A DNA stretch of 22,997 bases from a virus: positions 1 to 22,997 of IMG/VR virus record IMGVR_UViG_3300006793_000297; one strand, written 5' to 3'. The notes under the pieces are model-generated. The model searched no databases. It was not told the DNA's origin and was given only the letters and a program-made list of their open reading frames with translations. This document shows, one piece after another, positions 14,270-16,087 of the stretch; the stretch's first letter is position 1; the number at the start of each line of letters is the position of its first letter. A program made the translations under genes and the position numbers.

Positions 14270-15709
14270 ATGAATTATAAATTTAAAACAAAGCCATACG
14301 CGCATCAATTAAAAGCATTAGAGCGCTCTTGGGATAAAGAGTATTTTGCCTATTTTATGGAAATGGGGACAGGTAAATCTAAGGTATTATTAGATAATTG
14401 TGCGATGCTCTATGATAGGGGAGAAATTAATGGATTACTTTTGATTGCTCCTAAAGGTGTATATAAAAATTGGTATGAACAAGAAATTCCTCAACACCTT
14501 CCCGATCACATAGAAAAGAAAGTAGTCCTTTGGAAAACCTCTGATAAATCTGGAGAGCAGGTTAAAAAATTAAATACTTTGTTTTCCACTGGAACAGACT
14601 TTCATATTCTTATAATGAATGTAGAAGCTTTTTCTTATCCCTTTGGATGTGAGTTTGCTAAAAGATTTTTGAATTCCCATAAAGCGATGATGGCAATTGA
14701 TGAATCAACTACAATTAAAAATCCTAAGGCCAAAAGAACTGGTAATATTTTAAAGTTAAAACCTTTAACTAAATATAGAAGAATTTTAACAGGGTCACCT
14801 ATTACTAATTCTCCATTAGATTTATGGAGTCAGGCTCAGTTTCTTGATGCATGGCTCTTGGGGTTTGATTCTTTTTGGGCGTATCGTGCTCATTATTGTA
14901 TAATGAAAACTATGAACTTAGGCTCTAGAAGTGTAAGCGTTCCAATTGGACCCAATAGAAGAAACTTACCAGAATTAGAAAAAAAGATAGCCGTCTTTAG
15001 TGAACGAGTTTTAAAAGATGATTGTTTAGATTTACCACCTAAGACTTATGTAACTCGTCATATTCAATTAACTGATATACAGAAAAAACTTTATAAAGAA
15101 ATGAGAAAGTATGCCATTTCAGAATTAGAGGGAAAAGTATGTTCTACTTCTACAGTAATGGTGCAGCTATTAAGACTTCATCAAATATCATGTGGTTATC
15201 ACGCTACGGATGATGGTAAAACTCAAGAGCTTCCTTGTAATAGATTAACTGAGCTAATGGATATTATTTATGAACTATCTGGTAAATGTGTTATCTGGTC
15301 ATTCTATCAAAAAGATGTTCAAAGAATTATTGGAGAAATAAAAAAACAACATGGAGAAAATTCGGTTGTAGATTATTATGGACTAACTCCGCAGGAAGAT
15401 AGACAAAAAAATATTAAAAGATTTCAAGAAGACCCCGAGTGTAGATTCTTTGTAGGTACAACTCAAACAGGTGGTTATGGAATTACTCTTACTTCAGCTA
15501 GTACTATGATTTATTATTCTAATGGTTATGATTTAGAAAAACGTTTACAATCAGAAGCACGTATAGATCGTATTGGTCAAACTAAACCGATGACTTATAT
15601 TGATTTAGTTGCTGATGAAACTATTGATTTAAAAGTTCAAAAGTCTTTAAGAAATAAAATGAATATTGCTACCGAAGTTATGGGCGAAGAATTAAGAGAT
15701 TGGATTTAA
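14270..15709 (+). CDS. SNF2-type superfamily 2 helicase/translocase
   Basis: The protein has 479 residues. The Q-like opening, KPYAHQLKAL at about residues 8-17, precedes Walker A MEMGTGKS (30-37), motif Ia LLLIAPKGVYKNW, motif II MAIDESTTIKN (DEST at 144-147) and motif III LTGSPITNSPLDLW. The second RecA lobe has VVDYYGLTPQEDRQ, FVGTTQTGGYGITLTSA (motif V) and SEARIDRIGQ (motif VI, R431 and R434). It is a complete SNF2-like ATPase that may remodel or reset DNA forks and remove bound proteins. It is the only large forward gene, with its own promoter, diverging from the oxygenase and converging on the late genes. The ribosome-binding site is weak (AAAAGTAAATAG). Confidence 0.93.
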   Translation: MNYKFKTKPYAHQLKALERSWDKEYFAYFMEMGTGKSKVLLDNCAMLYDRGEINGLLLIAPKGVYKNWYEQEIPQHLPDHIEKKVVLWKTSDKSGEQVKKLNTLFSTGTDFHILIMNVEAFSYPFGCEFAKRFLNSHKAMMAIDESTTIKNPKAKRTGNILKLKPLTKYRRILTGSPITNSPLDLWSQAQFLDAWLLGFDSFWAYRAHYCIMKTMNLGSRSVSVPIGPNRRNLPELEKKIAVFSERVLKDDCLDLPPKTYVTRHIQLTDIQKKLYKEMRKYAISELEGKVCSTSTVMVQLLRLHQISCGYHATDDGKTQELPCNRLTELMDIIYELSGKCVIWSFYQKDVQRIIGEIKKQHGENSVVDYYGLTPQEDRQKNIKRFQEDPECRFFVGTTQTGGYGITLTSASTMIYYSNGYDLEKRLQSEARIDRIGQTKPMTYIDLVADETIDLKVQKSLRNKMNIATEVMGEELRDWI

Positions 15710-15780
15710 CCACCCCATCCATGAGTATCATCATGTACGACGCAGTTTGAAGTTACAGTATGTGCTCCCGGTTTTTCCAT
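15706..15780 (-). CDS. Possible 24-residue peptide
   Basis: The short ORF starts MEKPGAHTVTSNCVVHDDTH and ends GWGG. Its stop overlaps the stop of the facing helicase gene. The composition (Cys, two His, Asp-Asp, Gly-rich end) is unlike random AT-rich translation and could bind a metal. There is no convincing ribosome-binding site, and it lies beside a dyad cluster. It could be chance, a leader or a remnant of a larger gene. Confidence 0.25.
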   Translation of the reverse strand: MEKPGAHTVTSNCVVHDDTHGWGG

Positions 15781-15782
15781 AA

Positions 15783-15874
15783 TTGACTACTAATTTACTT
15801 ATAGTCAACGTGCAATAAAAAAATCAAATGATTTTGTAAATCGTGTAAATAATTTGTAAATTAAAATTTACAAA
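15783..15874. repeat. Cluster of dyads and repeated TGTAAAT units, candidate origin or operator
   Basis: Within 92 AT-rich bases between converging genes I see three dyads. The first is TTGACTA (15783-15789) with TAGTCAA (15802-15808). The second is AAATCA (15821-15826) with TGATTT (15829-15834). The third has perfect 10-base arms, TTTGTAAATT (15853-15862) and AATTTACAAA (15865-15874), separated by two bases. The unit TGTAAAT recurs at 15835-15841, 15844-15850 and 15855-15861 on the plus strand and inverted within 15865-15873. Repeated units, dyads and high AT content are typical of replication origins or multi-site operators. They could also serve as a weak bidirectional termination zone. 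Only the sequence pattern is certain. Confidence 0.5.
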
Positions 15875-16087
15875 CTAAAAAATAAAACCCTTTATATCTA
15901 GTATTCTTTCTAAAAGAACTAGTGACACAGCCCCCACCGTGCCTAATAATACCCAATAGATCCTGTCTATCTTGCCGCCCAAATCGTGAATTCCATTATG
16001 CATATGATATTGTGATTTCTTTAGGCCTTTGATGTGGCCATAAAGCGAAAGGATATGTTCTCTGGTAGTTTTAGGTTTGATATCCAT
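15875..16087 (-). CDS. Small membrane protein, XhlA/holin-like layout (70 aa)
   Basis: It starts MDIKPKTTREHILSLYGHIK. A helical, His-rich part, SQYHMHNGIHDLGGKIDRIY, follows at about residues 25-44, then one membrane helix, WVLLGTVGAVSLVLLERIL at about 45-63. A short soluble helix followed by a C-terminal membrane span resembles the XhlA family and small proteins found at the end of tail operons in marine phages (recollection). A lysis or virion-membrane role is plausible. It shares one base with the stop of the giant structural gene (TAATG) and is the last gene of the late block. Its stop adjoins the dyad cluster. Confidence 0.6.
   Translation of the reverse strand: MDIKPKTTREHILSLYGHIKGLKKSQYHMHNGIHDLGGKIDRIYWVLLGTVGAVSLVLLERILDIKGFIF

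Follow-up and report, generated by a model that had tools for sequence, protein, structure and literature searches.

The AT-rich repeat cluster at positions 15783-15874 of the viral DNA analyzed here (the window, 22,997 nt in length) is best explained, with a probability of roughly three in four, as a captured SAR11 promoter and operator that responds to the regulator ScfR and drives a viral microprotein encoded at 15706-15780 of the minus strand. Homology with a host intergenic region, the offsets of its boxes, a source found only in SAR11, peptide cores common to host and phage and isocitrate lyase genes retained in some phages show the descent of this control region from the host.

The cluster is located between two convergent genes, a SNF2/DEAD-type helicase (14270-15709, plus strand) and an ORF of 70 amino acid residues (15875-16087, minus strand), which is the last gene of a minus-strand operon. 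These flanks, as well as all dyads and repeat units described in the original prediction, were confirmed. The 92 nt of the cluster have an A+T content of 80%. Dyad 1 (TTGACTA/TAGTCAA, 15783-15789 and 15802-15808, 7-bp arms) surrounds a -10-like TATAAG (15798-15803, minus strand), and is intact in the viral contigs L152, L162, L166, and L171 and disrupted in L002. Dyad 2 (AAAATCA/TGATTTT, 15820-15826 and 15829-15835, 7-bp arms) shows no conservation in relatives and probably arose by chance. Dyad 3 (15853-15862 and 15865-15874) has perfect 10-bp arms with a 2-nt center, and is the longest short-loop palindrome of the window, equaled in 10 of 2000 shuffles. TGTAAAT units are found at 15835, 15844, and 15855 in direct orientation and at 15866 in inverted orientation; with four units in 92 nt, this is the densest cluster of the window, as had been claimed, and none of 5000 dinucleotide shuffles of the region matched it. 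The conserved elements of the cluster are 6-nt boxes, and dyad 3 is made of two of them. Searches of the window with Rfam gave no matches, and no tRNA was found.

The claim that no annotated gene explains the cluster stands for annotated genes only, because an overlooked ORF of 24 amino acid residues (MEKPGAHTVTSNCVVHDDTHGWGG, 15706-15780, minus strand) adjoins it. Its ATG is 2 nt away from the cluster and its stop codon overlaps the helicase stop codon by 2 nt. The cluster region and the 24-residue ORF together are referred to as the cassette, and the 70-residue ORF is directly upstream of it.

We searched prokaryote genomes (257 Gb, 85,000 species genomes) for a box pattern common to the window and to unrelated phages. 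The matches were eight loci, all of them in Pelagibacteraceae (SAR11) and in a single intergenic context: a divergent gene of the ScfR/RamB type, the boxes, a small ORF, and then a gene encoding an isocitrate lyase (aceA) of 424 residues. In locus L192, the regulator matched ScfR (PF09856) with an E-value of 1.6e-59 and the RamB model with 397 bits (below the strict cut-off, 700); the enzyme matched isocitrate lyase with 725 bits (cut-off 562). Both genes are present and divergent in 71 of 73 host loci, and each host genome tested has a single copy of the box pattern. The small ORF between scfR and aceA (L191-L263) has about 42-64 residues with the core GxYxxDDxxDWGxxG; it was found in 62 genomes of a family sample of 197 and in only three of 289 genomes of the class, at least two of which also belong to the family sample. 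No significant match to it was found among the models of Pfam, NCBIfam, and PHROGs, nor any structure match in PDB. Many SAR11 genomes show TATAA(G/A) 6 nt before the ATG of the small ORF, which would give a leaderless mRNA.

The region upstream of the viral ORF (15781-15872, minus strand) is homologous to the scfR-aceA intergenic region of SAR11. A host promoter profile, built only from SAR11 loci fetched by protein search, matched positions 15875-15811 of the window with an E-value of 1.3e-6, while the best reversed decoys reached 0.13 and 0.18. It also matched contigs with the cassette in the same slot as the window, a sister group and unrelated phages (to 1e-11), each time on the 5' side of the peptide. 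In a region with 80% A+T these E-values are approximate, with an nhmmer bias term equal in size to the score. Reversed sequences serve as the real control, so the argument rests on the decoys and on positions.

Box positions were compared as offsets from the ATG. On the minus strand, the window shows TGTAAA at -92 (15867-15872) and TTTACA at -80 (15855-15860) and -60 (15835-15840), all of them at offsets identical to those of the host; dyad 3 is formed by the boxes at -92 and -80. The TTTACA at -69 (15844-15849) has a counterpart in some host genomes only, as TTTAC at -70, and the AGTAAA at -19 (15794-15799) stands where the host has TGTAAA. The host offsets are -101, -92, -80, -60, -28, and -19, and the boxes at -101 and -28 are missing from the window. 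This base-exact agreement also supports the start codon chosen for the viral ORF. The host promoter and the unrelated phages show a tandem TTTGTAAA-T-TTTGTAAA, and the window has one member of each tandem pair (-92 and -19) together with the inverted boxes at -80, -69, and -60. The descent of the window boxes from an intergenic region between scfR and its acyl-CoA-related target agrees with ScfR/RamB control. The host version of dyad 3 keeps the two boxes, and not the inner part or the exact palindromy; an RNA hairpin was rejected, since the inner arms are not complementary in most host sequences and the boxes are kept. The host has TATAAG 6 nt before the ATG; the window has TAGTAG there and another TATAAG 11 nt further upstream. 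A sigma-70 scan gave only weak sites, not above shuffles, and the -10 and -35 assignments are tentative.

Viral contigs were searched with a back-translated NCVVHDD pattern, which gave 38 contigs, and with the palindrome, which gave 31 contigs, almost none of them related to the window. In the latter, the palindrome stands at the start of about 125 conserved nt that precede an ORF of 47-55 residues (MYADKKKSQKVYVESKCVSRDDCCWDETP...), and an independent protein search gave largely the same contigs. In marine viral contigs the cassette was found in three settings: the same slot in relatives of the window (L152, L161, L162, L166, L169, L171, L174, and L176), another place in a sister group whose PolA is about 60% identical, and phages unrelated to the window. 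A profile was built from five same-slot relatives, covering the 5' region and leaving out the window and its two nearest contigs; it matched positions 15872-15782 of the window with an E-value of 1.2e-19 and unrelated phages with E-values up to 1.5e-6. In turn, the profile of the unrelated phages matched every same-slot contig extending into this region, even where the contig had been retrieved by the peptide pattern only. All relatives with the cassette have kept the boxes, as has the SAR11 source promoter, which bears out the operator array of the original prediction, with the boxes as predicted binding sites. An origin of the sister group from a second SAR11 clade was dropped, as L156 alone had a higher score with the second host profile. 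Some members of the sister group (L151, L163, L173, L177, and L184) show a hairpin around CTGGAATTCTTTCGGACAGAGAG before the module, and in L172, L179, and L182 the peptide follows directly after a CTGGAATTCTTTCGGACAGAGAG hairpin, with an AAAGG ribosome site.

Two of the unrelated phages, L188 and L110, have, like the host, an isocitrate lyase gene immediately after the peptide. The gene of L188 (L188:1468-2712) is complete and its product scores 699.7 bits, shows KKCGH and is 56% identical to the SAR11 enzyme; that of L110 is located at the contig end. Among the viral loci, isocitrate lyase was found in L188/L136 and L110/L137 only, and no ORF of the window encodes isocitrate lyase or malate synthase. 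Other genes were seen around the cassette. In L188, a ClpP-like ORF is located further downstream of the isocitrate lyase. Many unrelated phages (L085:4394-6220, L090:34-1959, L082, L103, L108, L109, and L112) have a CHASE2/adenylate-guanylate cyclase gene convergent to the cassette, an assignment that Pfam confirmed in L085 and L090; the pairing of such a gene with a carbon-state promoter is suggestive. In L185, ORFs judged by eye to be TctC- and TctA-like tricarboxylate transporters lie about 0.4-2.9 kb downstream of the cassette.

All of the 38 contigs found by the peptide pattern, except L170 and L178, show a short ORF ending in ...NCVVHDDx(H/F)(D/G)WGG (about 35 marine viral contigs). Codons that the search pattern left free encode an invariant W and GG but differ at third positions, in support of translation of the viral peptide. 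It has retained the DDxxDWG core seen in the small ORF of SAR11: the host cores read Y(M/L/V)(R/N)(D/E)D(H/D)(C/Q)DWG and those of the window type VVHDDTH(D/G)WGG. A viral-peptide profile run against 2022 host ORFs ranked members of the host small-ORF family in the top 23 places and in 58 of the top 60, and against 3097 ORFs of the unrelated phages its top three were their peptides. With the host peptide profile, viral peptides took first rank in both the same-slot and the sister group, and there was no match in the unrelated phages with long peptides, a group that is linked through the regulatory region and the window-type peptide profile. The similarity between host and window-type peptides is significant by rank only, with weak E-values (0.01-0.6) because the core has about 10 residues. 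The viral peptide pattern was absent from prokaryote genome contigs because the host version differs, and the DNA box pattern then located it. Conversely, no viral contig showed the host-type peptide pattern, which indicates that the phage versions have diverged and are not recent copies. When 50,697 isolate phage records were searched for the cluster and the peptides at the DNA and protein levels, no relevant match emerged. We read the 24-residue ORF as a reduced viral relative of the small ORF located before isocitrate lyase in SAR11.

The peptide bears on whether the boxes could act as DNA alone, that is, as a decoy in which phage ScfR boxes titrate the host regulator and alter host aceA expression, with the peptide secondary. 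Operators multiply with the phage genome while each host genome has one box pattern, and an ScfR gene was not found in the viral loci fetched, as a decoy would have it. The peptide frame, however, is kept with variation at third positions and an invariant W-G-G, and L172, L179, and L182 of the sister group retain the peptide after loss of the upstream module, which argues that it has a role of its own; we therefore regard the decoy as unlikely. An array for a phage-encoded regulator, similar to the SAR11 promoter by convergence, would agree with the presence of the same boxes in phages with no gene in common with the window. It is made very unlikely by box offsets that agree with the host to the single base, by a peptide core common to the host small ORF and by the isocitrate lyase retained in two phages.

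The helicase is 70% identical to that of Pelagibacter phage HTVC027P and the window is a fragment of a related phage; given this relationship, its host is likely a SAR11 bacterium. HTVC027P lacks the cassette, and its helicase gene shares 4 nt with the small convergent gene. Similarly, these genes abut or overlap with no gap in 43 of the 59 IMG/VR relatives that have both, and of the 73 regions downstream of a closely related helicase, only those of L001 (nearly identical to the window) and L002 contained the cluster. Other relatives carry different inserts at this place. In L003, L004, L008-L010, L039, L042-L047, and L187, the slot between the helicase and the 70-residue ORF is a hypervariable cargo slot; its variants include a different insert of 130 nt with another small ORF and a plus-strand small ORF like that at 2727-2915 of the window, and in L187 the peptide is joined to the other insert. 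Elsewhere in the window, the minus-strand ORF at 389-808 has a LAGLFDGEG-like start, resembles a LAGLIDADG homing endonuclease and adjoins an exonuclease-like ORF; it had no Pfam match at an E-value of 0.001.

This slot also weighs on a terminator, either of the late operon or bidirectional between the convergent genes. A dyad does begin at the stop codon of the 70-residue ORF, and the minus strand has a T-rich stretch, TGATTTTTTT. Nevertheless, positions 15783-15874 contain no terminator-like site with a G+C-rich stem and a T-run, the stems are nearly devoid of G-C pairs, the same two genes end without intergenic DNA in most relatives, and dyad 2, which lies beside the T-run, is unconserved, while the host keeps only the boxes of dyad 3. 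A terminator is thus highly improbable. A replication origin with iterons and an AT-rich unwinding region, the first candidate of the original prediction, is scarcely credible: the cluster is AT-rich with short repeated units and dyads, but the intergenic region is missing from most close relatives (71 of the 73 lack the element, and the repeat units are not conserved in the lineage as a whole), which is not the behavior of an essential origin, the element occupies another slot in the sister group and is always upstream of the same peptide family, and the GC-skew bend at about 14-16 kb matches one plus-strand gene in an otherwise minus-strand region.

The captured host promoter has parallels in known systems. 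The glyoxylate operon of Paracoccus is activated by RamB, which acts through two boxes of a divergent intergenic region (PMC10370305), and characterized ScfR proteins bind paired boxes and short-chain acyl-CoA (PMC6765138, PMC3420887). PrpR of Mycobacterium tuberculosis binds TTTGCAAA N TTTGCgAA, with one base between the two halves, a sequence also found upstream of icl1, and the binding of MtRamB was mapped to TTTGC(A/G)AA (PMC6765138, PMC3420887). SAR11 resembles these systems in that a divergent regulator and isocitrate lyase share one intergenic region with paired, near-identical boxes, and its TTTGTAAA T TTTGTAAA resembles the PrpR site with T in place of C. In contrast to them, SAR11 shows a small ORF before aceA, and the window lacks both regulator and enzyme. 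The ScfR sites of SAR11 are putative, assigned only by position and by resemblance to TTTGCAAA, and the viral boxes are presumed ScfR binding sites. The binding of paired boxes and acyl-CoA by characterized ScfR proteins, together with the tandem arrangement in SAR11 and in the unrelated phages, leads us to propose ScfR control of the viral unit.

Cyanophages place genes under control of host PhoBR (Zeng and Chisholm 2012, as cited in PMC12753301; S-PM2d, PMC10976474). The likeness is that genes of a marine phage stand behind boxes of a host nutrient regulator, so that expression tracks host physiology; the window also has boxes homologous to those of the host regulator before a phage gene. 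The two differ in that the cyanophage system involves PhoB, a phosphate signal and binding shown by gel shift, whereas that of the window presumably involves ScfR/RamB and carbon (acyl-CoA) in SAR11; furthermore, the product is a microprotein in the window cassette and a metabolic enzyme in the PhoB case. The genes aceA and aceB have been found in marine viruses (PMC4053976, PMC5332604), and L188 and L110 are like such viruses in carrying isocitrate lyase, unlike the window. The infection transcriptome of HTVC027P, the phage without the cassette, was reported with PhoB-related effects and does not mention isocitrate lyase. In the literature searched, we found no report of the capture of ScfR boxes or of this host control region, nor of the small ORF.

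According to the mechanism we propose, the control region and the small ORF would have been captured together from a SAR11 host, in which TGTAAA/TTTACA boxes would control the small ORF and then aceA, divergent from the ScfR/RamB-type gene. Host ScfR, whose homologs sense short-chain acyl-CoA, would bind the phage boxes, so that the microprotein would be made when the host runs the glyoxylate shunt, according to its acyl-CoA state, and would act on the same physiology as its host counterpart. As a more tentative extension, which we hold to be possible and rather less probable than not, unrelated SAR11 phage lineages may repeatedly have captured the acyl-CoA-responsive aceA switch with its microprotein, discarded the enzyme, and come to use a shortened microprotein under the host regulator that would interfere with the glyoxylate shunt or retune it.

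SAR11 is described as the most abundant marine bacterial group and pelagiphages as a major influence on it. Capture of the cassette suggests that these phages plug into a switch of host carbon metabolism. The established example of such capture is phosphate, and, as far as we found, a phage with boxes of a host carbon regulator would be the first known to sense carbon state through a captured host promoter. In addition, a small ORF that is specific to SAR11 and recurs in viruses would offer a direct handle on the control of the glyoxylate shunt in streamlined bacteria.
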